DNA of 64,000 nucleotides from Microbacterium sp. CGR2 (GTDB lineage Bacteria > Actinomycetota > Actinomycetes > Actinomycetales > Microbacteriaceae): contig NZ_RBHX01000001.1 of assembly GCF_003626735.1 (NCBI RefSeq), positions 496,001-560,000 on the forward strand, read 5' to 3'. This document shows positions 6,782 to 18,609 of the stretch, in pieces (positions within the stretch are counted from its first letter, which is position 1; every line of letters begins with the position of its first letter). The notes beneath the pieces were generated by a model. The model did not search any database. It saw only the letters and a program-made list of their open reading frames with translations, and had not been told where the DNA came from. Position numbers and translations under genes: made by a program.

Positions 6782-7165
6782 TCAGGCCTGCGGCAAGGCG
6801 GCGACGACGTCGATCTCGACGAGGATGTTCGCCAGTTGCGAGCCGACCGTGGTGCGCACGGGGTACGGCGCGGTGAAGAACTCCTCGTAGGCCTCGTTGA
6901 ACGCCTCGAAGTCGGCGAGGTCCTGCAGGTGCACCGTCGACTTCACCACGTCGTCCATGGTCAGGTCGTGCACGGCGAGAACCTTCTGGATGTTGCGGAG
7001 CACCTGACGAGTCTGGTCGCCGACGCTGTCGGGCACGGCATGGTCGTTCGACGCATCCTGCGGCCCGAACCCGGCGGTGTACAGGAATCCGTTCGCAACG
7101 ACCCCGTGGCTGTACGGGCCTGCGGGGTTGGGGGCGCCCTCGGCGTGGTAGCCAGTCTTCGGCAT
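6782..7165 (-). CDS. RidA/YjgF-family enamine/imine deaminase
   Basis: Small trimeric-type protein of 127 residues. Family members hydrolyse reactive enamine or imine intermediates such as 2-aminoacrylate released by PLP-dependent dehydratases. The sequence shows GPYSHGVVANGFLYTAGFGPQD at the N-terminus, but the usual C-terminal arginine in the IEIDVVAAL strand region is not obvious; the segment reads VRTTVGSQLANILVEIDVVAAL. The start at 7165 follows GAAGGGAAACACATC. It is the last gene of a minus-strand run containing an IclR regulator, an amidohydrolase and a PLP dehydratase. Clearing the enamine made by that dehydratase is its likely job here. Confidence 0.88.
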   Translation of the reverse strand: MPKTGYHAEGAPNPAGPYSHGVVANGFLYTAGFGPQDASNDHAVPDSVGDQTRQVLRNIQKVLAVHDLTMDDVVKSTVHLQDLADFEAFNEAYEEFFTAPYPVRTTVGSQLANILVEIDVVAALPQA

Positions 7166-7223
7166 GATGTGTTTCCCTTCGGTTGGTTTCGGCTGGTTTC
7201 GGACGGATTCGGGTCGGATGGGT

Positions 7224-7955
7224 CTATCCCAGTTCGCGGGAGATCTCGGCGGCGGTCTCGCGCAGCATCGGAACGCGCTGTTCGAGCTCGGCCAGGCTCT
7301 GCGCGACGCGCAATGCGGTGATGGACAGCGCCCCCACCACGCCGGCGGAGGAGACGATCGGAACGGCCACGCAGGCCACGAAGTCCTCGAACTCCGCGTC
7401 GTCCGCGGCCCAGCCCCGTCGGGCCGCCACCGCAAGGTCGGCATCGAGCGCGGTGCGGCTCGTCAGCGTGTTCGCGGTGTATCGGCGCCAGTCGCAGTCA
7501 GCCAGCACAGCATCACGTCGCTCGACGGGCAGCGCGGCGAGCACGGCCTTGCCGATACCGCTGCAGTAGGGCCGGACCGACGCCCCGACACGGGAGTACA
7601 TGCGCATCCCGCCGGCATCCTCGACCTTGTCGACGTAGACGATCTCGTCGCCGAGGAGGGCGGCGACATGCACGGTGTTGCCGACGATGCCGTGCAACCG
7701 TCGAACATGGGCGTAGGCGGCCCCGCGCAGGTCGAGCTGCTCGAGCGCCGCGCCGCCGAGCGCGGCCAGACGCATGCCGACGACGAATCGGCCGTCGGCA
7801 TGTCGGCGCACGAAACCGACCTGTTCCAGGCTCTGCAGCTCCCGGAACATCGTCGACCGATGGATCCCGAACTCCTCCGCGAGTTCGGCCACGGTGCGAG
7901 GCTCCGCGGCGACCGCGGTCAGGATGGCGGCAGCCCGCTCCACACTCTGCGACAT
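7224..7955 (-). CDS. IclR-family transcriptional regulator
   Basis: A 243-residue regulator with an N-terminal winged helix-turn-helix (TVAELAEEFGIHRSTMFRELQSLEQVGFV, about residues 18-46) and a C-terminal GAF-like effector domain containing the CSGIGKAVLAALP segment. The start at 7955 has AAGGGG upstream and lies 4 nt after the amidohydrolase stop, so it is in the same operon. By position it should sense an intermediate of the adjoining pathway and act on the divergent promoter region at 10856-10934, on this operon, or both. IclR proteins in sugar-acid pathways such as KdgR sense 2-keto-3-deoxygluconate; that role is an inference here. Confidence 0.88.
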   Translation of the reverse strand: MSQSVERAAAILTAVAAEPRTVAELAEEFGIHRSTMFRELQSLEQVGFVRRHADGRFVVGMRLAALGGAALEQLDLRGAAYAHVRRLHGIVGNTVHVAALLGDEIVYVDKVEDAGGMRMYSRVGASVRPYCSGIGKAVLAALPVERRDAVLADCDWRRYTANTLTSRTALDADLAVAARRGWAADDAEFEDFVACVAVPIVSSAGVVGALSITALRVAQSLAELEQRVPMLRETAAEISRELG

Positions 7956-7959
7956 CCGC

Positions 7960-9588
7960 TCACACCCCTTCCGTGGTGCGTCGCAGCCCGCGGCCAGGCA
8001 TCGCGCCGGTGAGCTCGCCGTCTGCGAGGACTCGAACGCCGGCGACGAACACGTCGTCGATGCCGATCGCTCGGCCTCGCGGACTCTCGTAGGTCGCCGT
8101 GTCGGTGACCGCGTCTGGGTCGACGAGCACCACATCGGCGACGGAACCGGGTACCACCGCACCACGTCGCCCCAAACCGAAGCGCCGGGCCGGCAGCGTC
8201 GACAGATGGTGCACGGCCTCGGCCCAGGTCCAGGTGCCCCGCTCGCGGACGTACCCCCGGAGGTACGCGGCGAAGGTGCCTGCGGCACGCGGATGCGGGT
8301 GGGCGCCGATGAAGATCCCGTCCGAGCCGCCCATGTGCGCCGGATGCGCGAAGATGCGGGCCAGCTCCGAGTTCGGTCGCGGGTGGCGGACGGCCATGAC
8401 GGCGCTGCACTCCAGACCGGATGCGGCGAGCACGTCGAGGGCGAAGTCCATCGGCGATGTCCGTGCCCGGTGCGCGGCGGCACGGAGCGTGAGCCCGTGC
8501 GCCCAGGCGTACTCCGGTGCCGCGATGTGAGCGAGGGTGACCATGTCGGGCCAGTCGGGCCCGAGGCTGGCACTGGCGGTGGCTCTCGCCGCGCCGGCTT
8601 CGCGCAGGACGGCACGCTGCGCGGGATCGGCGAGGACGGCAGCGGCTTCGCGCGCCGGGAGCAATGACACCTCGGGCGGCAGCAGCGGCATGCCCAGGAG
8701 CGTGCAGCCGCGGACGTACGGGTAGGCGTCGAACGTGGCATCCACTCCGGCGGCATCGAGCTCGGCGAGCTGGCCGAGCAGGATGTCGGCGTCGGCGTGG
8801 AAATGCGAGACATGCACGGCAAGAGGTGCGGCAGCTTCCGCTGCCGCACGGCGGGCTATGTCGGCCATCTCGGAGATGCCGACGGCCGTGTTCGCCTCGT
8901 ATCCTCCGCGCATGTGGGTGACATAGACACCTCCGGCGCGAGCGACGGGCACGCAGAGGTCCGCGATCTCCGCGCCATCCTGGAAGACGCCGGGGACATA
9001 GTCGAGTCCGGTGGACAGTCCCAGGGCTCCGTCGGCCATACCCCTTTCCACGAGTGCCGCCATGCGCCGCCGCTCCTCAGGCGTCGCGGGGCGGTCGGCG
9101 CGTCCGCACACCTCGAACCGCACGGTTCCCGCGGGGATCAGATACCCGGCGTTCAGCGGGGACGCGCCGTCGACGCCCTCCAGATACGCGTCGACGCCGC
9201 CGCCGCGATACGTCGGGTGCGGGCCGTTGATCGCGGCGAAGTATTCGGACGCGTACGCACCGTCACCCGGCGCATACGACACCCCGTCCTGACCGACGAT
9301 CACCGTCGTCACTCCCTGGCGAAGGAGCGTTCCGGTGACGTCGGGATCGGACAGGAGAGCGTCGGCGTGGGAGTGCGCGTCGACGAGGCCGGGAAGGACC
9401 AGGCGGCCGGATGCATCCACCACGGCATCCCCGGGCTGGAGGTCGACGTCGCCCACGCCGACCACGACTCCGGCCTCGATCGCGACGTCCGCGCGCACGA
9501 GGCCGTCCGCGCGCACGAGGCCGTCCGCGCGCACGAGGCCGTCTGCGACGACAACGGATCCGCCGCGAAGGATGGTTCGGCCTGTCAC
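7960..9588 (-). CDS. N-acyl-D-amino-acid deacylase-type amidohydrolase (candidate N-acetylglucosaminate deacetylase)
   Basis: A 542-residue metal-dependent amidohydrolase. It has an HxH metal site in VDAHSHADALL (about residue 78), GVTTVIVGQDG, the GLSTGLDYVPG segment, YVTHMRGGYE, HVSHFHADAD and a late GGSDGIFIGAHPHP. This order is that of N-acyl-D-amino-acid deacylases. The neighbours are a D-serine-dehydratase-like PLP enzyme 7 nt upstream, and 2-keto-3-deoxygluconate kinase with KDPG aldolase divergently. A simple D-amino acid route does not explain the last two; deacetylation of N-acetyl-D-glucosaminate, itself a 2-acylamino acid of D configuration, would. Near the N-terminus three 18-nt direct repeats encode Gly-Leu-Val-Arg-Ala-Asp. 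Confidence 0.82.
   Translation of the reverse strand: MTGRTILRGGSVVVADGLVRADGLVRADGLVRADVAIEAGVVVGVGDVDLQPGDAVVDASGRLVLPGLVDAHSHADALLSDPDVTGTLLRQGVTTVIVGQDGVSYAPGDGAYASEYFAAINGPHPTYRGGGVDAYLEGVDGASPLNAGYLIPAGTVRFEVCGRADRPATPEERRRMAALVERGMADGALGLSTGLDYVPGVFQDGAEIADLCVPVARAGGVYVTHMRGGYEANTAVGISEMADIARRAAAEAAAPLAVHVSHFHADADILLGQLAELDAAGVDATFDAYPYVRGCTLLGMPLLPPEVSLLPAREAAAVLADPAQRAVLREAGAARATASASLGPDWPDMVTLAHIAAPEYAWAHGLTLRAAAHRARTSPMDFALDVLAASGLECSAVMAVRHPRPNSELARIFAHPAHMGGSDGIFIGAHPHPRAAGTFAAYLRGYVRERGTWTWAEAVHHLSTLPARRFGLGRRGAVVPGSVADVVLVDPDAVTDTATYESPRGRAIGIDDVFVAGVRVLADGELTGAMPGRGLRRTTEGV
9487..9540. repeat. Three perfect 18-nt tandem repeats in the amidohydrolase gene
   Basis: GTCCGCGCGCACGAGGCC occurs at 9487-9504, 9505-9522 and 9523-9540. 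It encodes repeated Gly-Leu-Val-Arg-Ala-Asp around residues 13-34, before the catalytic domain. Copy-number change would keep the frame. Confidence 0.92.
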
Positions 9589-9595
9589 GTTCGCC

Positions 9596-10855
9596 TCAGA
9601 AATAGGTTCGGACGAGATCGATGACCAGGTCGGACTCGGCGGACTCGACGACGGGCAGCACCCGCCACTTGTCGAATGCGGTGCACGGGTGCGAAAGACC
9701 CAGCCGCACGACGGAACCGATCGGGAGCGGCTGGTCGGACCGCACGTACGAGTGCTGGTCGTTCATCGCGGACACCTGCGCGGCCAGCGAAGACCACGGC
9801 CCTGTCAACTCCGCAGCCGCCGCGCGCGGAATCGGCAGCCCCTCGTCGTAGGGGAGGTCGCGCTTGCCGCCGTCGACGAGCGCGAGCCCGGGCTCCGGGC
9901 TCGACACGACGCGAACGAGCGCATGCATCGCATTGACGAACTTCGGAGCGCCATCCACTCCGTCGCTTCCCTCGTCGAAAGGCGAGATCCCGCGGTAGAA
10001 CCCGTCGTCGTGCACGATGTAGGCGCCCGAGCGCAGCACGAACCGGGTGCGCTCATCGCGCTCCGCGTCGGCCCACACCTCCGCCACGATGTCGAAGTAG
10101 GCACTGCCGCCGGCGGTCACATACAGGTCGCCGTCGCCGTACAGCGGGGTGATTTCGGCATGCAGGTCGAGCTGCGCCATCAGATAGCTGCGCACGGCGG
10201 CGACCGTGTCCGGCGACCGGTCGTGTCCGAGGCTGCCCTCGTAACCCGCGACGCCGGCGAGTCGCAGGACCGAGGACTGCGCGATCCGTTCCGCGATACG
10301 CACACCTTCGTCGACGGTGCGCGCTCCGGTCCGGCCGCCTGCGGCACCCAGCTCCACGCACACGTCCACTGCCCGCGATGCGCCTGCGGCGAGCAGTCCG
10401 CGCTCCATCGCCTCGACGGTGACGAGGGAGTCCGCCCAGCACACGAAGCGGAACCCCGGGTCGCTCAGCTCCTCGGCCAGCCAGGCCAGGGACCGGGGGT
10501 CGACCGCAGCGTTGGCGAGCATGATCGAATCGAGTCCGAGATCGCGCCCGGTGCGGACCTGCCCCATGGTGGCGAGCGTGATGCCGAAGGCACCGGCATC
10601 CGTCTGCCGCTTCCAGAGCACGGGAGCCATGGTCGTCTTGCCGTGCGGCATGATGTCGAGCCCATGTTCCGCACACCAGCCGGCCATCGTCGCGACGTTC
10701 GCCGACATGGCCGCATCGTCGAGCGCGATGAGGGGCGTCCAGAATTCGCTGAGCCGTGGGCCGGTGGCCAGGAACTCGGCGGGCGTCATCCCGATCGCGC
10801 GTGCGGGGAGCCCCTTGTCTCTCGCTGTCAGAAGCTCATCGTCCATAACGGCCAT
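9596..10855 (-). CDS. D-serine dehydratase-like PLP enzyme (candidate D-glucosaminate ammonia-lyase)
   Basis: Fold-type III PLP enzyme of 419 residues with an alanine-racemase-like N-terminal barrel. K73 in MPHGKTTMAP is the expected PLP lysine. Near the C-terminus H389 and C391 (SHPCTAFDKW) match the His-x-Cys zinc site of eukaryotic-type D-serine dehydratases; D-threonine aldolases have His-x-Asp. A dehydratase/deaminase is therefore favoured over an aldolase. The start at 10855 has GAAGGGATCAG upstream; 10846 is an alternative. It is first in the minus-strand operon. With the divergent KDG kinase and aldolase, the natural product would be 2-keto-3-deoxygluconate plus ammonia from D-glucosaminate. 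D-serine or D-threonine deamination remains possible. Confidence 0.8.
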   Translation of the reverse strand: MAVMDDELLTARDKGLPARAIGMTPAEFLATGPRLSEFWTPLIALDDAAMSANVATMAGWCAEHGLDIMPHGKTTMAPVLWKRQTDAGAFGITLATMGQVRTGRDLGLDSIMLANAAVDPRSLAWLAEELSDPGFRFVCWADSLVTVEAMERGLLAAGASRAVDVCVELGAAGGRTGARTVDEGVRIAERIAQSSVLRLAGVAGYEGSLGHDRSPDTVAAVRSYLMAQLDLHAEITPLYGDGDLYVTAGGSAYFDIVAEVWADAERDERTRFVLRSGAYIVHDDGFYRGISPFDEGSDGVDGAPKFVNAMHALVRVVSSPEPGLALVDGGKRDLPYDEGLPIPRAAAAELTGPWSSLAAQVSAMNDQHSYVRSDQPLPIGSVVRLGLSHPCTAFDKWRVLPVVESAESDLVIDLVRTYF

Positions 10856-10934
10856 TCTGATCCCTTCCCTCGTGGTTGTGCAAATGTCGCAACCTCGGTT
10901 GCACGATACGCACACCGGTGGTCATCATGAAGAC
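10856..10934. promoter_or_regulatory. Divergent control region with nested inverted repeats
   Basis: 79 nt between the PLP enzyme and KDG kinase genes. It holds GCAACC-TC-GGTTGC at 10889-10902 and, overlapping it, GTGCAA at 10878-10883 with TTGCAC at 10899-10904. Such dyads between divergent operons suit the IclR regulator of this cluster. No clean -35/-10 pair stands out. Confidence 0.5.
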
Positions 10935-11894
10935 ATGCCGGATCGTTCTTCCCCCCGCCTGATCACCATCGGCGAGACCATGGCCCTCATCACGCCCTCC
11001 CGCGTCGAACCACTCGCCACCGCGACCGACGTGCGGTTGCTCATCGGCGGCGCGGAGTCGAACGTCGCGACACACGCCGCGCTCCTGGGCGTTCCCAGTG
11101 CCTGGGTCAGCGCCGTCGGCGACGACGCTCTGGGTGTGCGCGTCCGCGACGGCGTGGCGCAGCACGGAGTCGACGTCCAATGGGTCAGCAGCGATCCTGC
11201 TGCCCGCACCGGGGTCTATTTCAAGGACCCCGGAAACGGCGTGCTTTACTACCGGCAGGACTCCGCCGCCTCCCGCATGAGCCCGGAGAGCATCGCCGAC
11301 GTGCCCCTCGAGCAGGCCTCGGCCGTGCATATCTCCGGCATCACGCCCGCACTGTCGACCTCGTGCGCGGCACTCATCGACTCGATCATCGATCGGGTCG
11401 CGCCAGGTCCCGGCATCCTCAGTTTCGACGTCAACCACCGGGCCGCACTCTGGGCATCCGGTGAGGCGGCGCCCGCTCTGCTCAATCTGGCCCGTCGCGC
11501 CGACCTCGTGTTCGTCGGGCTGGACGAAGCCGAAGGGCTCTGGGGCACGGCCGACGCCGATGCCGTGCGCGCACTCATCCCCCAGCCCGCCCGCATCGTC
11601 GTCAAAGACGGCGATGTGGGTGCGACCGAGTTCCACCGCAGCGGCGCGGGCGGCGACACCGACCTCCACACGGATGCCGACGTGCGCACCTTCGCGCCCG
11701 CCATCCGGACCGAAGTCGTCGAAGCAGTGGGCGCCGGAGACGCTTTCGCCGCCGGATACCTCGCGGCGCTCCTCGACGGTGCCACCGCCGCCGAGCGTCT
11801 CGTCGCCGGGCATCGCCGCGCCCATCTCGTCTTGCAGTCCACCAGTGACCTCATCCCCGATGACCACGGAGATCTTCTCCCCGATGACCACTGA
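10935..11894 (+). CDS. kdgK: 2-keto-3-deoxygluconate kinase (PfkB family)
   Basis: Phosphorylates 2-keto-3-deoxygluconate (KDG) to KDPG with ATP. Length is 319 residues. The N-terminal TIGETMALITPS and GGAESNVATHAALLG and the C-terminal VGAGDAFAAGYLAALL with its catalytic aspartate are PfkB signatures of the KdgK subgroup. The usual DT before GAGD is replaced by AV. The C-terminus ends in a short Pro-Asp-Asp-His repeat. The next gene, 10 nt downstream, is KDPG aldolase, which firmly supports KDG as substrate over other sugars. It is divergent from the PLP enzyme operon, with which it shares a 79-nt control region. Confidence 0.88.
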   Translation: MPDRSSPRLITIGETMALITPSRVEPLATATDVRLLIGGAESNVATHAALLGVPSAWVSAVGDDALGVRVRDGVAQHGVDVQWVSSDPAARTGVYFKDPGNGVLYYRQDSAASRMSPESIADVPLEQASAVHISGITPALSTSCAALIDSIIDRVAPGPGILSFDVNHRAALWASGEAAPALLNLARRADLVFVGLDEAEGLWGTADADAVRALIPQPARIVVKDGDVGATEFHRSGAGGDTDLHTDADVRTFAPAIRTEVVEAVGAGDAFAAGYLAALLDGATAAERLVAGHRRAHLVLQSTSDLIPDDHGDLLPDDH

Positions 11895-11904
11895 GAGGTC
11901 AGCT

Positions 11905-12507
11905 ATGACAGACAACGCCGCTTTCGACGACATCCTCCGTGAAGCTCCGCTGATGGCCATCCTGCGCGGCATGGGCGTCGAGCGCACCCTCGCCGTGGCC
12001 ACGCGCGCCTGGGATCTGGGCATCACCGCCGTGGAGGTGCCCGTGCAGACCTCCGTCGACGTCGAGGCGCTGCGCGTCCTCGCCGCAGCGGCGCGCGAAC
12101 GCGGCCTGACGGTGGGGGCGGGCACCGTGGTGACACTCGAGCACGTTCGCCAGGCGAAGGATGCCGGAGCCGCCTTCACCGTGAGCCCCGGGTTCGACCT
12201 CGACATCGTCCGCGCCTCGCACGAGGCGGGGATGCCTTCGCTTCCCGGTGTCGCCACGGCGTCCGAGGTCCAGCAGGCGCTCGGCGCCGGGCTCACCTGG
12301 CTGAAGGCCTTCCCCGCCTCCCTGCTGGGCCCCGGCTGGTTCCCCGCGATGCGTGGTCCGTTCCCGGGCGCGAGGTTCGTCGCGACCGGGGGGATGGATT
12401 CCTCGAACGCACGAGAGTTCCTGGATGCCGGTGTTCGGGTCGTCGCCGTGGGATCCGCACTCGAAGACGAGAAGCAACTTCCCGCCCTGGCGGCGCTCAT
12501 CCGCTGA
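11905..12507 (+). CDS. eda: KDPG aldolase (2-dehydro-3-deoxy-phosphogluconate aldolase)
   Basis: Class I aldolase cleaving KDPG to pyruvate and glyceraldehyde 3-phosphate. Length is 200 residues, standard for the family. It has MAILRGM at the N-terminus, the catalytic glutamate in VEVPVQT, VGAGTV, and the Schiff-base lysine in TWLKAFPAS. GAGAGGTC precedes the ATG. It is cotranscribed with kdgK (10-nt gap) and followed by a strong terminator hairpin at 12514-12556. With kdgK it completes the lower half of a sugar-acid pathway. Confidence 0.93.
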   Translation: MTDNAAFDDILREAPLMAILRGMGVERTLAVATRAWDLGITAVEVPVQTSVDVEALRVLAAAARERGLTVGAGTVVTLEHVRQAKDAGAAFTVSPGFDLDIVRASHEAGMPSLPGVATASEVQQALGAGLTWLKAFPASLLGPGWFPAMRGPFPGARFVATGGMDSSNAREFLDAGVRVVAVGSALEDEKQLPALAALIR

Positions 12508-12513
12508 GCGGCG

Positions 12514-12556
12514 TGACCGATCCGGGACGGAGCAAGCGCCCGTCCCGGATCGGTCA
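12514..12556. terminator. Bidirectional terminator hairpin between eda and the MHS transporter
   Basis: A perfect 17-bp stem (12514-12530 with 12540-12556, arms beginning TGACCGATCC) and a 9-nt loop lie between two convergent genes. There is no long U-tract, as is common in actinobacteria. Confidence 0.85.
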
Positions 12557-12594
12557 TCGTCACGTCGATCGTCACCCGCAGTGGGTCCGCCGGC

Positions 12595-13950
12595 TCAGGC
12601 CGGCGTCTTGATGGTCGATGTCGCGGCAAGCTCGTGCAAGCGCCCGGCGCCCTCGACATCCGGTCGGACCGACGCCAGGAGCGTGGCGATCACACCGACG
12701 ATCGAGATGACCGCCGCGTAGATCACCACGGGCCAGATGGCACCACCGGCGGCGGCGACCAGCGCGACACAGATGAGCGGAGCGAGTCCGCCGCCGAGTG
12801 TGTTGGACAGCTGGTAGCCGAGGTTGACACCTGTCGTCCGCGCCTCCGGGTCGAACATCTCGACCAGCATCGTCGCCAGCGTCGCCTGCATGGCCACACC
12901 GAACACGACGAACCCCAGAATCTGGCCGAGCCAGATCAGCCACATGTTGCCCGTGTCGAAGAGCGCGAAGGCCGGGTAGACCATCGCGGCGAAGCCCAGG
13001 CATCCGATGATGTAGACGGTGCGACGGCCGATGCGATCCGAGATCGCACCCCAGAGCGGCGCGACGACGATCTGCAGCAGACCGACGATCATGGTCCCCG
13101 CGAAGCCGAACCAGACGGGCGTCTCGTGGTCGGCCAGCATGTAGGTGAGGCCGTAGGTGAGCACGACATAGCCCGCGATCGACTGCGGAAGACCGATGAG
13201 GATTCCCATGATGGCGTTCTTCGGGTGCCGGAACACCTCGACCAGCGGGTTGGCCTTCTTGCCCGCCGCAGCCACCTGCAGCGCCTGGGTCTCGGTGAAC
13301 TCCTCCGACTCCTCCAGCTGGCGCCGCAGCAGCACGGCCGCGATCGCAAGCACGATGGAGAGCACGAACGGGATGCGCCATCCCCACTCCAGGAACCACG
13401 ACTCGGGGGCGAGTCCGAGACCTGCCATGAGTCCGCCGGAGAGCACGTTCGCGATGCCCGCACCACTGATGAGGAAGGCTCCGTAGAGTCCGTGCTTGCC
13501 GGTCGGCGCGGCCTCGACGACCATCGTCGCCGCGCCGCCCATCTCGCCACCGACGAAGAATCCCTGGAACATGCGGAACGTCAGCAGGAGAAGCGGCGCC
13601 ACGATACCGATCACCTGGTCGGAGGGGATCAGGCCGATGCCCGTGGTGGCGAGACCCATGCCGATGACGGTGCTCATCAGCACCACCTTGCGGCCGACCC
13701 GGTCGCCGATGATGCCCCAGATGATGCCGCCGACCGGGCGGAGGAAGAATCCGACGGCGAAGGTGGCGAAGGAGTTCAACTGGGCGATGAGCGGATCGTT
13801 CGAGGAGAAGAACACCGCGGGGAAGACAGCCGCGGCGGCGAGGCCGTACAGGTAGTAGTCGTAGTACTCGATCAGAGTGCCGATCGAGCCACCGGCGATC
13901 GTCTTGCGCTGCCTGCGGGTCAGACCGCCCTTCGGGGTGACAGTCGTCAT
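12595..13950 (-). CDS. MFS transporter, metabolite:proton symporter (MHS) family
   Basis: A 451-residue inner-membrane transporter with about twelve membrane spans. The N-terminal GTLIEYYDYYLYG and the loop GDRVGRKVVLM place it in the MHS branch, whose members import carboxylates, betaines, shikimate or similar acids with protons. It ends convergently with the kdgK-eda pair and starts divergently from a DauR-like regulator. Uptake of the acidic substrate of the neighbouring cluster, proposed to be N-acetylglucosaminate, is the simplest role. The substrate itself cannot be read from sequence. Confidence 0.88.
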   Translation of the reverse strand: MTTVTPKGGLTRRQRKTIAGGSIGTLIEYYDYYLYGLAAAAVFPAVFFSSNDPLIAQLNSFATFAVGFFLRPVGGIIWGIIGDRVGRKVVLMSTVIGMGLATTGIGLIPSDQVIGIVAPLLLLTFRMFQGFFVGGEMGGAATMVVEAAPTGKHGLYGAFLISGAGIANVLSGGLMAGLGLAPESWFLEWGWRIPFVLSIVLAIAAVLLRRQLEESEEFTETQALQVAAAGKKANPLVEVFRHPKNAIMGILIGLPQSIAGYVVLTYGLTYMLADHETPVWFGFAGTMIVGLLQIVVAPLWGAISDRIGRRTVYIIGCLGFAAMVYPAFALFDTGNMWLIWLGQILGFVVFGVAMQATLATMLVEMFDPEARTTGVNLGYQLSNTLGGGLAPLICVALVAAAGGAIWPVVIYAAVISIVGVIATLLASVRPDVEGAGRLHELAATSTIKTPA

Positions 13951-14085
13951 CCGAGCCTCCTTGCTTCGGTCGGGCTGGGCGGGTGTGAACAGCCTCGACG
14001 ATCCTGAATGATTGTCGATAAGCTAGCAGGGAGACGAACGATCTGTCTACGCGATGAACTTTTTGTCAGATTGGATGCCGCGACG

Positions 14086-14805
14086 ATGACGACGCCGAAC
14101 ACGGAAGACCCCGGCGTGATGGCCGTGGGCGAGATCACCCCCGGGACCTTCGAAAGCGCAGAAGAGGTCCTCCGCCTGTACGGCCCCGTGATGCGAGCAC
14201 TCGCCACCGCCGCCGGACCGTCGGTCGAGGTCGTGCTCCACAACCTCGACGGTGCCGACATCGATCTGGGGCACACGATCATGGCGATCGAGAACGGTCA
14301 CGTGACCGGACGCAAGGTCGGCGGGCCGTCCACCTCCCTCGGTCTGGACGTCATGAAGCACCGACAGAAGAACCATGACGCGTTCGGCTACGCCGGATTC
14401 ACGCCAGACGGACGAGAACTTCGCTGCTCTTCGGTCTACTTCCACAACTCCGCGGGCGACATCATCGCGTCGCTGTGCATCAACGTCGACAACAGCCGAA
14501 TCCAGCAGGCGCGGAGTCTGCTGGATGCCCTGCTGCCCGCTGTCGAGCACTCCGAGACGGCACCCCGTGAGCACTTCGGCGAAGACCTCGTGTCGGTGAT
14601 GGCATCGATGATCACCGACACCATCGCCGAGATCGGGCGTCCCGTCGACCAGATGTCCAGAGACGACAAGATCGCCGTGCTCGAGCGTCTCGATCAGCGG
14701 GGTGCGACGCAGATGCGCAAGTCGGTCGAGGCGATCGCGCAGCGTCTCGGCATCTCACGGGTGACCGCGTACGCCTATCTCGAGGAGGCCCGCGCCCGCG
14801 GATGA
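14086..14805 (+). CDS. YheO/DauR-like transcriptional regulator (PAS-like plus HTH)
   Basis: A 239-residue protein with an N-terminal YheO-like PAS domain (EEVLRLYGPVMRALATAAGPSVEVVLHNL, then GHVTGRKVGGPSTSL) and a C-terminal helix-turn-helix (SVEAIAQRLGISRVTAYAYLEEAR). This architecture is that of DauR, the D-arginine catabolism regulator of Pseudomonas. No start has a good ribosome-binding site. 14086 (ATG) is taken as the first residue before conserved sequence; TTG 14071 and ATG 14008 are alternatives. It is divergent from the MHS transporter gene, which it may control in response to a D-configured amino acid or amino-sugar acid. Confidence 0.82.
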   Translation: MTTPNTEDPGVMAVGEITPGTFESAEEVLRLYGPVMRALATAAGPSVEVVLHNLDGADIDLGHTIMAIENGHVTGRKVGGPSTSLGLDVMKHRQKNHDAFGYAGFTPDGRELRCSSVYFHNSAGDIIASLCINVDNSRIQQARSLLDALLPAVEHSETAPREHFGEDLVSVMASMITDTIAEIGRPVDQMSRDDKIAVLERLDQRGATQMRKSVEAIAQRLGISRVTAYAYLEEARARG

Positions 14806-14829
14806 GGTGACCGTCCGGGCTGTCGCCTC
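14804..14829. terminator. Short hairpin between convergent regulator and transporter genes
   Basis: GAGGTGAC and GTCGCCTC pair with one G-T wobble around a 10-nt loop. It overlaps both stop codons. The stem is short and lacks a U-tract, so termination is tentative. Confidence 0.4.
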
Positions 14830-16198
14830 AGCGCACGTCTCGCGAGCGGATCGGGTACAGCCAGAAGCAGAGCCAGGCGAGCGTTGCGAAGCCGAGCGGG
14901 ACCACCGCGAGCATCAGACGGATGCCGCCGTCGACGGCATCCGGCTGCACGTCCTCGAGCCTGGCATCGAACCCGGATGCCGTCAGCACCCAGGCCGCGA
15001 CCACCGCCTGCAGCACGACCGAACCACGCACCACGAACCCGTTCACGCCGAAGTAGGCGCCTTCGCGGCGGTGGCCGGTGCGCGCGGCGTCCTCGTCGAT
15101 GATCTGTGCGAGCATCACCTCAAGCAGCTGCAGCAGACCGCCTACGCCCACACCCACTCCGACGCCGACAAGCACCGCGCCGAGGACGTCCGCCGCGAAG
15201 AGGAAGCCGAGGACCGTCACACCGCAGATGGCGACGCTCCACAGCACCGCGGTCCGCGGGCTCGTTCGTCGCACGACCGCGCTCCACAGCACGATCGAGG
15301 GGATCGCGGTGACGAAGATCGCACCGAGCAACAGGCCGGCCTGGCCCTCCGGCACCCGCAGGGAATAGCGCACGTAGAAGGGGACTGCCGCGAGGATCAC
15401 GGCGAGCGCCGTCTGGACGAACAGGGAACCGAGCACGTAGGGCACGAAGGCGCGGTTGCGGAACGTGTAGCTCAGCTGGTGACGCCAGCGCATCGCCTCG
15501 GCGGCGGCTTCCGGAGCGCGTCGCTCGATCATTCCGCCGAGGAACGACCAGCTGAACAGCACCAGACACACCCCGCTGAGCACGAGAGCCATGCCCGGCC
15601 ACCCGATGGTGCCGTAGAGCGCAGGGGCGCCGGCCGTGCCGAGCACGATGCCGAGGATCGCGAAGATCTGCCGTGGCACGTTCCCCCGGGACCGCTCCTC
15701 CGTGGTGCGGAAGATCTCGGGAAACAGCGCCGAGATGTTCAGCACCACCACCACGAAAGCCACGTCGTAGACGGCGACGATGACCAGGAACCAGACGATG
15801 AGGCCGGCCACGGGGAGGTCGGGTGGCATCCAAACCAACGCGAAGGCGACGACCAGCGGCACGACGCCGATGCCGATCCAGGGAACCCGCCGCCCCCAGG
15901 AGGTTCGCACGCGATCGGAGAGTGTTCCGACGATCGGATTCAGGATCGCATTGAGGATGCCGTGGCCGATCATCGCCGCCGCCACCCAGCCGGCGGGCAC
16001 GGCGAGATGGGAGACGTAGAAGTAGACGACGAAGGCCGAGAAGGTCTGCGACATCAACTGCGTCGGGAACCCGGAGAGACCGAACGCCATCGACTGCGCT
16101 CGCGACGGCGCAGCATCCAGTCGGCGGTCGCGTAGTCGCTCGCGCAGTCGCTCGTGCAGCGAGGTCACCGGGTGCGGCTCTGCGGGAGTCCGCTTCAC
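14828..16198 (-). CDS. MFS transporter, glycoside-pentoside-hexuronide (GPH) type
   Basis: A 456-residue polytopic membrane protein with about twelve spans. SMAFGLSGFPTQLMSQTF near residue 36, GTLSDRVRTSWGRRVPWI near residue 95 and IIDEDAARTGHRREGAYFG near residue 378 resemble cation-linked GPH sugar symporters of the MelB group. Its start overlaps the stop of the ChbG-like deacetylase gene by 4 nt, so the two are coupled. It probably imports the glycoside or amino-sugar oligosaccharide that the deacetylase processes. A run of Val-Gly repeats occurs around residue 345. Confidence 0.83.
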   Translation of the reverse strand: MKRTPAEPHPVTSLHERLRERLRDRRLDAAPSRAQSMAFGLSGFPTQLMSQTFSAFVVYFYVSHLAVPAGWVAAAMIGHGILNAILNPIVGTLSDRVRTSWGRRVPWIGIGVVPLVVAFALVWMPPDLPVAGLIVWFLVIVAVYDVAFVVVVLNISALFPEIFRTTEERSRGNVPRQIFAILGIVLGTAGAPALYGTIGWPGMALVLSGVCLVLFSWSFLGGMIERRAPEAAAEAMRWRHQLSYTFRNRAFVPYVLGSLFVQTALAVILAAVPFYVRYSLRVPEGQAGLLLGAIFVTAIPSIVLWSAVVRRTSPRTAVLWSVAICGVTVLGFLFAADVLGAVLVGVGVGVGVGGLLQLLEVMLAQIIDEDAARTGHRREGAYFGVNGFVVRGSVVLQAVVAAWVLTASGFDARLEDVQPDAVDGGIRLMLAVVPLGFATLAWLCFWLYPIRSRDVR

Positions 16199-17124
16199 TG
16201 CGGCCGGTCCCGCTGCAGTCGGCGAAGATCGCGCCAGCCCACCCGCACGAGTGACTCGTCGACCATTGTCTGGAGCACGACGGAGTCGGACAGGAGGCGC
16301 AGTTCGTATCCGCGCTTCGCTGCGCCGATGTCGACCGCGTGGCGCAGTTCCTCGTCGTCGACCATCGGATGCAGGTAGATCTCGGTGACACCCGCCGGCA
16401 CCGCCCGCAGCAGAGCGACGAAACCATCGCGGATCTGCTCGTAGCTCTCCTCGTCGGGCGTGCCTTCACCCGCGAGCTCGAAGGGATGACTCCACAGCCG
16501 GTCGATGATCTCGACGCCGAGGGAGTCTGCCACCGCGGCAGCCCCGTCGAGTTTCGCCTGGAGCGCGGGGTCGGCTCCGGTGTCGTCCATGCTGCGCGGG
16601 AGGCGGAAGGGAAGTCCGTGACGGACGGCGACGTCGAACACCTGACGCATGAAGTCCCGGCCCGTGGCCAGCCCGTAGACGGAGCCCATGTGATTGTCGA
16701 GGTGGGTCACGTCGACACCGGCGTCGAGTGCGGCCTGCAGCTGAGCGGCGATCTCGGCGGCGACGTCGTCATCGGTCGCGTTCGTTTCGACGGCGGCGAC
16801 GGCCGTCGGGAAGAAGCCGTGCTCGTCGACGAGACTCGTGCACGTGCCGGTCAGCGGACGCCAGCGGTACCGCGTCCATTCGCTGGTGAGGACCAGGTGG
16901 ACGCCGACGTCCAGGTCGGTGCGCGAGGCGGCGAACGCGAGGGCCTCCGGCGACCAGCCGCACGGGACCATGATGGTCGCCGAGTCGATACGTCCGGCGG
17001 TGAGCAGGTCGATGATGGCGGTGTTGGCGGCGTGACACATGCCGAAGTCGTCGGCATTGAGGATGATGGCGCGCGCGCCCGGTGGGAGCCCGAGTCGGTC
17101 GGCGAGATCGGAGGTGGGCGTCAT
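16195..17124 (-). CDS. ChbG/YdjC-family carbohydrate deacetylase
   Basis: A 309-residue metal-dependent deacetylase. D25 and D26 in NADDFGM, H76 in VGVHLVLTSEW, and H141 and H145 in THLDNHMG correspond to the metal and catalytic residues of the family. In E. coli ChbG removes one acetyl group from chitobiose or chitotriose so that they can induce and be degraded. Here it is coupled to a GPH transporter and follows a ROK regulator by 39 nt, consistent with an N-acetylated oligosaccharide as substrate. The cluster adjoins the proposed N-acetylglucosaminate genes, linking both to chitin-type substrates. Confidence 0.87.
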   Translation of the reverse strand: MTPTSDLADRLGLPPGARAIILNADDFGMCHAANTAIIDLLTAGRIDSATIMVPCGWSPEALAFAASRTDLDVGVHLVLTSEWTRYRWRPLTGTCTSLVDEHGFFPTAVAAVETNATDDDVAAEIAAQLQAALDAGVDVTHLDNHMGSVYGLATGRDFMRQVFDVAVRHGLPFRLPRSMDDTGADPALQAKLDGAAAVADSLGVEIIDRLWSHPFELAGEGTPDEESYEQIRDGFVALLRAVPAGVTEIYLHPMVDDEELRHAVDIGAAKRGYELRLLSDSVVLQTMVDESLVRVGWRDLRRLQRDRPQ

Positions 17125-17163: not shown

Positions 17164-18300
17164 TCAGCGGCCGGTGCCGGCGGACGGCGTGAGGATACGG
17201 GTGAACAGCGCGGCGCGGAGGGTGGATGCGGCCTCGCCGATGGCCCCGACCAGTGGCGCTTCGGGGCCGAACGACGAGGCGACGAACCTCAGGGGCAGTT
17301 GGGCCGCCAGGCTCTCGGCGTAGCGCTCGATGGCGTCGCGGAGAACGGGGTGGGCGGCGTCGCCGCCGAGGACGAACGCTTCAGGGTCGAGCACCAGTCC
17401 GACACTGCCCGCGACGAGCACGATGCGCTTGGCGACCTCGGCCACGAGTCGTCCGGCGGCTTCGTCCCCGCGTCCTGCGGCTTCGAGGTGGGTCAGCAGG
17501 GGAGCGTCGACGTCCAGGCCCAGCCCGAGGGCGAGGTCTCCGACCACCGCCTCGTTGACGATCGGGGCGCCGATGGGGAGCGGGGTCTGCGGCAGGTACA
17601 TCACTTCACCGGCAACGCCCGAGAAACCGCGGTGCAGCGCACCGTCGAGCACGATGCCCGCTCCGAGGGCGTCGTCGAGAACGAGGAGGGCGAAGCTGGC
17701 GAATTCGCCGCCGACTCCCGCGGTGAGCTCTGCCAAGGCTGCGAGGTTGACGTCGTTCTCGACGCGGACGGGGCAGTCGAGGGTCGCTCCGAGGGTGCCA
17801 CGGAAGGCGCCTCCGTCGGGGCCGAGGTCGTCGCGGATGCCGCCGTCGGGCGTGACGATTCCGGGGACGCCGACGACGACCAGATGCACGGGTGCGTTCG
17901 CGGGGCGGCATCCGTCGATGAGGGCCGCGATGTGTGCGACCCGGTCTTCTCCTGCGGGGAACGCCGCATGCTGTTCCGCGCGGACTGCTCCGGTGGCGTC
18001 GACGAGTGCGACGTGGGCGGCATGGTGATCGATGTGCACGGCCGCCGCGAACCCGAGCCGCGGGTGGAGTTTCACGCGCCCGGCGGCAGGTCCCCGGGTG
18101 TCGCGGTCGACCCCCGCCGCAGCGATGGCGCCGGCGCTGTCGAGCATCCGAATGACCTGAGTCACCGCGGTGCGGGAGAGTCCCGTGGCAGCCATCAGTT
18201 CGGTGCGCGTCTGGGCTCCGCTCCGTGCGAGGGACTCCAAGACTGCGCGGCCGTTCAGGGTGCGGAGCAGGCTCTGCGGTCCCGCGAGTGGTCTTGACAA
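17164..18300 (-). CDS. ROK-family transcriptional repressor
   Basis: A 378-residue NagC-type regulator. The N-terminal winged helix (RTELMAATGLSRTAVTQVIRMLDSAG) is followed by an actin-like ROK domain with VPGIVTPDGG and ENDVNLAALAEL. The usual cysteine zinc cluster of ROK proteins is missing: the segment after FSGVAGEVMYLP has no cysteines. I choose the TTG at 18300, preceded by GAGGGATCATC; an upstream ATG at 18540 would add 80 low-complexity residues. It likely controls the ChbG-like deacetylase and transporter behind it, sensing an amino sugar or its phosphate. Confidence 0.83.
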   Translation of the reverse strand: MSRPLAGPQSLLRTLNGRAVLESLARSGAQTRTELMAATGLSRTAVTQVIRMLDSAGAIAAAGVDRDTRGPAAGRVKLHPRLGFAAAVHIDHHAAHVALVDATGAVRAEQHAAFPAGEDRVAHIAALIDGCRPANAPVHLVVVGVPGIVTPDGGIRDDLGPDGGAFRGTLGATLDCPVRVENDVNLAALAELTAGVGGEFASFALLVLDDALGAGIVLDGALHRGFSGVAGEVMYLPQTPLPIGAPIVNEAVVGDLALGLGLDVDAPLLTHLEAAGRGDEAAGRLVAEVAKRIVLVAGSVGLVLDPEAFVLGGDAAHPVLRDAIERYAESLAAQLPLRFVASSFGPEAPLVGAIGEAASTLRAALFTRILTPSAGTGR

Positions 18301-18328
18301 GATGATCCCTCGGTCGACGTCTCGCCCA

Positions 18329-18368
18329 GCCTGCCACACCGGGTCGCCGGCCTGCCAGACCGGGTCGC
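18329..18368. repeat. Two 19-nt direct repeats, 21 nt apart, upstream of the ROK gene
   Basis: GCCTGCCACACCGGGTCGC at 18329-18347 and a one-mismatch copy at 18350-18368. The 21-nt period is two helical turns and the pair lies 29-68 nt before the ROK start codon. It could be a tandem operator for autoregulation. Confidence 0.55.
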
Positions 18369-18489
18369 ACACGTCGGGACTTCGCGTGGCGCGTGGGCCG
18401 TGGCGCGTGGGACGTGGGCCGAGGGCCGTGGGCGGAGGGCCGTGGCGCGTGCGACGACGTGCCGGGGGCGGACGGACGGGTACCTGGCT

Positions 18490-18609
18490 TGGCGTGCTGG
18501 GTGCGAGCGACATGCGCGGTGCGGATGGACGGGTACGCAACTGGCGTGCTGGGTGCGCGCGCGGGCGGGCGTGGGGTGCGACGTGTACCTAGCTGGCGTG
18601 CTGGGTGCG
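18490..18609. repeat. 52-nt-period repeats at the 3' end of the DUF222-HNH gene
   Basis: The core TGGCGTGCTGGGTGCG occurs exactly at 18490, 18542 and 18594, each 52 nt apart; the sequence between is diverged but shares GTAC-containing stretches. The rightmost copy encodes the last residues of the HNH protein (Arg-Thr-Gln-His-Ala-Ser-stop). The other two lie beyond its stop. G-rich sequence at about 18397-18456 adjoins them. No gene is seen between 18301 and 18588. Confidence 0.8.

Follow-up and report, generated by a model that had tools for sequence, protein, structure and literature searches.

What does a bacterial gene cluster degrade when it combines enzymes named after D-amino acids with enzymes of 2-keto-3-deoxygluconate (KDG) breakdown? 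The question is raised by a 64,000-nucleotide stretch of Microbacterium sp. CGR2 (NZ_RBHX01000001.1, positions 496,001 to 560,000; hereafter the window), which belongs to a 3.97 Mb genome assembly of 4 contigs and completeness 100. An earlier interpretation of the letters alone, the sequence-only reading, had proposed a pathway from N-acetyl-D-glucosaminate (GlcNAc1A) through KDG. Our comparative analysis indicates that the genes concerned very probably form one functional unit and, by analogy, that the pathway type is likely N-acyl-aminoaldonate catabolism. The sequence comparisons make it fairly probable that the cluster breaks down an N-acylated 2-amino-2-deoxyaldonic acid, most likely GlcNAc1A.

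Four genes lie on the minus strand: plp (9596..10855), deac (7960..9588), iclR (7224..7955) and ridA (6782..7165). They encode a fold-type III pyridoxal phosphate (PLP) enzyme of the D-serine-dehydratase type (PF14031), a proposed D-glucosaminate (aminoaldonate) ammonia-lyase; an amidohydrolase of the D-aminoacylase fold (PF07969) with Asp at the position of the subtype-V Cys metal ligand, a proposed N-acyl-aminoaldonate deacylase; an IclR family regulator (PF01614/PF09339); and a RidA family protein (PF01042, 107 bits), a predicted enamine/imine deaminase with a role like that of OngD in the ong pathway discussed below. Divergent from plp, with 79 bp between the two starts, the plus strand carries kdgK (10935..11894) for a KDG kinase-type PfkB kinase (PF00294) and eda (11905..12507) for an enzyme of the 2-keto-3-deoxy-6-phosphogluconate (KDPG) aldolase type (PF01081, 133 bits). 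Every gene that the sequence-only reading had named was recovered in its place by family profile matches. The nearest relatives of the PLP enzyme and the deacylase are proteins named Microbacterium.

Linkage and probable common regulation of the gene set

A search with the window PLP enzyme matched 95 of 299 Microbacteriaceae genomes at E <= 1e-40, the source genome included. The set retrieved comprised 80 loci from 79 other genomes, with 15 weaker-matching genomes left out. Genes at these loci were detected by similarity to the window proteins and to those of Tsukamurella; absences are lower bounds because the similarity probes reached only about 10 kb. Two further loci with a window-type deacylase carry one of kdgK and eda, in addition to the 27 of 80 at which deacylase, PLP enzyme, kdgK and eda are all present. 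The sequence-only reading had held that homologous clusters consistently devoid of kdgK and eda would tell against it, and these complete loci show a different picture. At least one of the two genes lies within 6 kb of the PLP gene at 29 of the 45 loci with a window-type (Asp-type) deacylase as opposed to 2 of the 35 others (Fisher p = 3e-8, which is only indicative since the compared genomes are related).

Gene order varies considerably. Besides the arrangement of the window, in which eda-kdgK diverges from plp-deac-iclR-ridA, we found ridA-iclR-kdgK divergent from either plp-deac-eda-gntP or plp-eda-deac-gntP, ridA-iclR divergent from deac-kdgK-eda-plp, kdgK-eda-plp accompanied by MHS-dauR and deac-ridA, and plp-iclR-kdgK-eda-deac. 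Since the gene set is kept through many rearrangements, the deacylase, the PLP enzyme, RidA, kdgK and eda very probably serve one pathway, as the sequence-only reading had supposed. The linkage counts, the varied orders and a common bidirectional candidate operator together lead us to reject chance neighbours.

Related clusters extend beyond the family. In a sample of the phylum, 26 of 396 genomes matched the PLP enzyme at E <= 1e-60; 22 of them came from other families, and 20 of these 22 were retrieved. A genus with large genomes, sampled 11 times, was taken as Streptomyces because the deacylase at L128 has the same sequence as a Streptomyces protein; all 11 sampled genomes match the PLP enzyme. 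Their loci carry the deacylase, the PLP enzyme, IclR and RidA in 11 of 11 cases, kdgK in 10 and a relative of the gluconate symporter (gntP) in 8. The combination of kdgK, eda and gntP with deacylase and PLP enzyme occurs in Tsukamurella tyrosinosolvens (L114), on an Arthrobacter plasmid (L118) and in a further actinobacterial genome (L119). The Tsukamurella locus (NZ_LR134451) is alike in content, with a PLP enzyme 52% identical to that of the window, and differs in gene order and transporter. It has been annotated gene by gene, with no pathway named in the annotation rows consulted, as RidA, IclR, sugar kinase, alanine racemase, D-aminoacylase, KDPG aldolase and gluconate:H+ symporter.

The candidate operator is a near-palindrome of 38 bp between the divergent operons (10877..10914, no strand), with the pattern TGTGC-N6-YRCAAC-N4-RTTGYR-N6-GCACA. 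With up to 3 mismatches allowed, its only match in the genome is itself, at 0 mismatches, and the pattern did not occur in 100 shuffles of the window. Among relatives with the arrangement of the window, 11 of 15 have it at the plp-kdgK junction with at most 2 mismatches; with at most 4, it adjoins the PLP gene at 8 of 11 Streptomyces loci. A looser core pattern was found at 13 of 16 loci of this arrangement (missing at L065, L067 and L068), about 2 matches being expected by simple shuffling over 361 kb. At L064, where genes of a sugar-type ATP-binding cassette (ABC) importer are inserted between plp and deac, a copy of the operator precedes the inserted genes. The presence of IclR in the unit suggests that this protein is probably the regulator of both operons, binding the 38-bp element. 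Its best NCBIfam model is KdgR (NF011671), at 139 bits below the cut-off of 275.

The likely importer differs among lineages. In the window it would be an MHS-family metabolite/H+ symporter (12595..13950, minus strand; TIGR00883, 356 bits, below the cut-off of 443), next to a regulator of the DauR/YheO type with YheO-PAS and HTH_22 domains (14008..14805, plus strand; PF08348 and PF13309). The gap between these two genes in the window holds no copy of the operator. MHS and dauR genes are present in 6 of the 27 full Microbacteriaceae clusters, both in the same 6 loci, and a gluconate-symporter relative is present in 5.

Comparison with the ong pathway

The passages of PMC9537276 used here describe an experimentally proven GlcNAc1A route of oxidative chitin utilisation, the ong cluster of Pseudoalteromonas prydzensis and relatives, named only from Gammaproteobacteria and one betaproteobacterium (Achromobacter), in which the deacylase OngB, the PLP deaminase OngC, OngD (RidA) and KdgK convert GlcNAc1A to KDG-6-P; all are needed for growth on GlcNAc1A, and kdgA is added to the ong clusters of Vibrio, Klebsiella and Serratia. 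The gene logic of the window equals that of this pathway: a deacylase of the D-aminoacylase fold, a fold-type III PLP deaminase, RidA and a KDG kinase stand together in both. We compared the window with 80 named ong-type loci among the matches listed, including a metagenome-assembled genome (MAG) of P. prydzensis whose genes resembling ongC, ongB, ongD and kdgK follow one another as expected. Identities between the window proteins and this locus are 28% for the deacylase, 31% for the PLP enzyme and 27% each for the kinase and RidA.

Trees were built with FastTree and midpoint-rooted without an outgroup. All 79 ong-type deacylases among the matches listed (one fragmented deacylase, L193, was dropped) form a clade with the window deacylase outside it. 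In the PLP tree, the 75 ong-type enzymes among the matches listed group with 3gwq; the window enzyme falls in the other half, with actinobacterial enzymes and three from enterobacterial plasmids.

The two deacylase groups also differ at the residues that matter for OngB. In place of C97, E226, K254, S292 and Q298 of PpOngB, the window deacylase has D101, Y230, H264, T296 (in its own numbering) and no Gln, column 298 being less certain because it lies within a differing insertion. Cys97, Glu226, Lys254 and Gln298 are present in 79 of 79 ong-type deacylases among the matches listed and in none of the 42 actinobacterial deacylases linked to kdgK or eda, all of which have Asp97, Tyr226 and either Thr or His at 254. 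Ser occupies position 292 in 76 of the 79 ong-type sequences among the matches listed vs 8 of the 42; the window enzyme has Thr there, like D-aminoacylases. In the published data as excerpted here, Ser292Thr in PpOngB lowered kcat/Km to 1.3%, and Lys254 is strictly conserved across AfDam-like, BbDam-like and OngB-like sequences. The fold and the catalytic Asp with His-x-His are present in the window deacylase, the Cys/His/His metal site is not, and Asp stands at the Cys position in 45 of 45 window-type rows as well as in the 42 linked ones. The subtype-V D-aminoacylases AfDam (1m7j) and BbDam (3gip) have the Cys ligand; the window group has Asp, lacks Lys254 and differs in its insertion region.

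Because the window proteins fall in neither the OngB nor the OngC clade, carry different residues and are 27-31% identical to their counterparts, the window system is not a member of ong, and plain membership can be rejected. Other components differ as well. The regulator is IclR in the window and MurR/RpiR (OngR) in ong, the transporter is MHS (GntP or ABC in relatives) as opposed to SSS (OngIT), and the ong cluster has the hexosaminidase OngA, with no GH20 protein among the ten encoded at 6782..17124. The ong-like route of the sequence-only reading therefore survives in its gene logic and not in the identity of its deacylase and deaminase. The best reading, by analogy, is that the window cluster would be an actinobacterial counterpart of ong, with the same mode of action if the substrate has been guessed correctly. 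The two may have been assembled separately, or may have diverged long ago with some parts replaced.

PF14031 has a single match in the genome, the PLP enzyme. Besides this domain, the enzyme has the PLP lysine and a His-x-Cys site, a motif with a Zn role in chicken D-serine dehydratase. The lysine and the SHPC motif are identical in 75 of 75 ong-type enzymes among the matches listed, in 11 of 11 from Streptomyces and in 29 of 29 aligned enzymes linked to kdgK. The PLP lysine motif, SHPC, D-x-H and PF14031 are common to the D-serine-dehydratase-type enzymes of fold-type III, including 3gwq, D-threonine aldolases and D-3-hydroxyaspartate dehydratase. The window enzyme is 33% identical to 3gwq, and its kdgK context sets it apart.

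Several side observations concern the same families. The structure 3gwq is filed as a 'putative D-serine deaminase' of Burkholderia xenovorans and may be a D-glucosaminate deaminase because it groups with the ong-type PLP enzymes. PDB 9g5m, filed as an N-acyl-D-amino-acid deacylase from Klebsiella pneumoniae, shares 51% identity with PpOngB over the aligned piece and has the same Ser-Ser-Ser at 290-292; its true activity may be the deacetylation of GlcNAc1A. In Betaproteobacteria (Paraburkholderia, Burkholderia, Caballeronia and Trinickia; L148-L216), an OngB-type deacylase with PLP enzyme and RidA is widespread among the matches listed, and at most of them a distant probe detected no kdgK relative within 8 kb. 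The 2022 survey of ong counted complete pathways and, in the passages cited, named Achromobacter only among Betaproteobacteria (PMC9537276).

Proposed substrate and alternative explanations

From the gene families, their linkage, the common operator and the conserved catalytic residues, we infer the following substrate, transport, regulation and reactions. The acid would be imported by the MHS symporter in the window and by a gluconate symporter or an ABC importer in relatives. The amidohydrolase would take off the acyl group. The PLP enzyme would then eliminate water and next ammonia at C2/C3, RidA would clear the enamine/imine, the kinase would phosphorylate the resulting KDG, and the aldolase would cleave KDPG to pyruvate and glyceraldehyde 3-phosphate. 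The operons plp-deac-iclR-ridA and kdgK-eda would constitute one regulon, switched together by IclR binding to the 38-bp operator. The last two enzymes agree with this scheme by family and nearest solved structures, their NCBIfam cut-offs not being reached. The best PDB match of the kinase is the KDG kinase 1v19 (117 bits), and the best non-engineered matches of the aldolase are the KDPG aldolases 1vlw/1wa3 (117 bits) vs 81.5 bits for 2v81, a 2-keto-3-deoxy-6-phosphogalactonate (KDPGal) aldolase.

Chitin-active lytic polysaccharide monooxygenases (LPMOs) leave N-acetylglucosaminate ends, and the sequence-only reading had proposed to look for conservation of the cluster together with them or with chitinases. 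The co-occurrence with LPMOs in Microbacteriaceae is weak. An AA10 LPMO was found in 9 of the 299 Microbacteriaceae genomes and not in the source genome. A PLP relative at E <= 1e-40 is present in 7 of these 9 (p = 0.005), one of the 9 (G257) has a weak PLP match at a locus outside the retrieved set, and the full cluster was seen in 2 of the 9, no significant excess (p = 0.20). The 11 Streptomyces carriers all have AA10 matches, 2 to 6 each, which says little on a link because the sampled genus has both throughout. A Microbacterium would depend for the acid on other organisms or on a different oxidising enzyme.

A number of further observations, like the scarcity of LPMOs, weigh against GlcNAc1A catabolism or limit its support. 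The source genome has one partial GH18 match (40 bits, above cut-off), though also three GH20 matches outside the cluster. None of the listed NCBIfam models reached its cut-off for any of the ten proteins. Neither kdgK nor eda is linked at 16 of the 45 loci with a window-type deacylase, and linked eda was found at none of the 11 Streptomyces loci. At L120-L125 the PLP enzyme stands without deacylase or eda, with a kinase relative in one of them, and L137 and L138 have a Cys-type deacylase and no kdgK. As to the operator, the reversed control pattern also has one match in the source genome at up to 3 mismatches, and with up to 4 mismatches the operator pattern matched L094, a locus without the cluster. 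Missing from the deacylase are the residues of OngB specificity as well as Lys254, which binds the carboxylate and is common to D-aminoacylases and OngB, and no enzyme of the window deacylase or PLP branch with a known substrate was found in the literature searched. The main threat would be the D-aminoacylase Sco4986 of Streptomyces coelicolor, reportedly active on N-acetyl-D-Phe and N-acetyl-D-Trp, if it belongs to this type of cluster.

Some of these points bear on alternatives. The cluster could serve the same type of pathway for another N-acylated D-2-amino-2-deoxyaldonate, such as N-acetyl-D-galactosaminate or an acid with a different acyl group; the kinase and the aldolase would then receive 2-keto-3-deoxygalactonate (KDGal) or a related keto acid. 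The deacylase, which departs from OngB at Glu226, Lys254, Gln298 and around Ser290-292, would fit such a substrate, as would the lack of an AA10 LPMO in most Microbacteriaceae carriers and the top NCBIfam model of the kinase, a bifunctional KDG/KDGal kinase scoring below its cut-off. The aldolase, however, is nearer to KDPG than to KDPGal aldolases and the kinase is nearest to a KDG kinase, and we regard this substrate as unlikely.

An N-acyl-D-amino acid pathway, in which D-serine, D-threonine or a similar amino acid is freed, deaminated by the PLP enzyme and its imine cleared by RidA while kdgK-eda serves another purpose, appears more doubtful still. It draws on what D-aminoacylases and D-serine dehydratases are named for and known to catalyse, on the deamination of D-serine and D-threonine by OngC in the cited passages (PMC9537276), and on the deacylase-type loci that miss kdgK and eda. 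On plasmids of Klebsiella variicola and Pantoea (L113, L116 and L117), related PLP enzymes have an amino-acid ABC transporter, RidA and IclR as neighbours, with no deacylase and no kdgK; the PLP family therefore also serves other substrates, and these plasmid loci are probably a D-amino acid version. For the window type, however, the kdgK/eda linkage survives rearrangement and shares its operator with the PLP operon, the importers of relatives include gluconate symporters and a sugar-type ABC system, and the deacylase is without the Lys254 that the excerpted data give as strictly conserved in AfDam-, BbDam- and OngB-like sequences. Two unrelated back-to-back operons, one for D-amino acids and one for general KDG/KDPG metabolism (e.g. 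of pectin- or alginate-type sugar acids), are very improbable: the genome has a second PF01081 gene, so that KDPG-aldolase-type genes are not confined to the cluster, but the same partners recur elsewhere as deac-kdgK-eda-plp, plp-eda-deac and kdgK-eda-plp, and the operator at the divergent junction is common to both.

For GlcNAc1A catabolism, the proposal of the sequence-only reading thus stands in its functional unit, its gene logic and the sugar-acid-type transporters seen in other lineages; it does not stand in ong enzyme identity, in the LPMO link or in the claim to explain every gene.

Neighbouring genes and possible meaning of the cluster

The last of these claims had included a ChbG/YdjC-type carbohydrate deacetylase (16195..17124, minus strand; PF04794, 179 bits) and a GPH-family transporter (14828..16198, minus strand; PF13347). 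Both genes are real; they overlap by 4 bp and adjoin a ROK-family gene (17164-18540, PF00480). In 106 related actinobacterial and plasmid loci, probed with single sequences about 10 kb to each side or to the contig end, no open reading frame had ChbG or GPH as its best match. They consequently lie outside the conserved unit and are rejected as part of the pathway; together with the ROK gene they are probably a separate oligosaccharide module.

A Pfam scan of genes flanking the other clusters covered 20 of 28 picked candidates. Transporters among them were the sugar-type ABC set at L064, family-5 ABC proteins (L065 and L068), an ABC ATPase (L111) and a phosphotransferase system IIBC protein (L083). 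The remaining genes showed no pattern (a GMC oxidase with an aldehyde dehydrogenase at L055, a second PF07969 protein at L057, HAD, LGFP, RraA and LMF1), and four had no Pfam match. Two loci bear signs of decay or sequencing errors: the PLP gene at L092 (genome G001) is broken into two frames, and the PLP, kinase and deacylase genes of the Microbacterium sp. NIBRBAC000506063 plasmid record (L115) lie in several frames.

No earlier report of such an actinobacterial cluster was found in the open-access literature searched. According to the passage cited (PMC9537276), the published ong survey required four or more genes with over 30% identity to ong genes; clusters of the window type would have escaped it, since three of the four shared proteins fall below this bar. 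In many records the PLP enzyme is labelled 'alanine racemase' or 'amino acid aldolase', which masks the pathway.

The sequence comparisons tentatively raise the possibility that Actinobacteria (Microbacteriaceae, Streptomyces, Tsukamurella and Arthrobacter) built their own GlcNAc1A route from other branches of the same superfamilies, with an Asp-for-Cys deacylase subgroup that reads the substrate in another way. If so, many records of Streptomyces and Microbacterium would have enzymes for oxidised amino sugars under the labels 'alanine racemase' and 'D-aminoacylase', and the D-aminoacylase fold would have a metal-site variant that can be tested. The Streptomyces cluster would then supply the downstream half of oxidative chitin use that has been missing, and an LPMO-free Microbacterium would scavenge the oxidised ends left by others.

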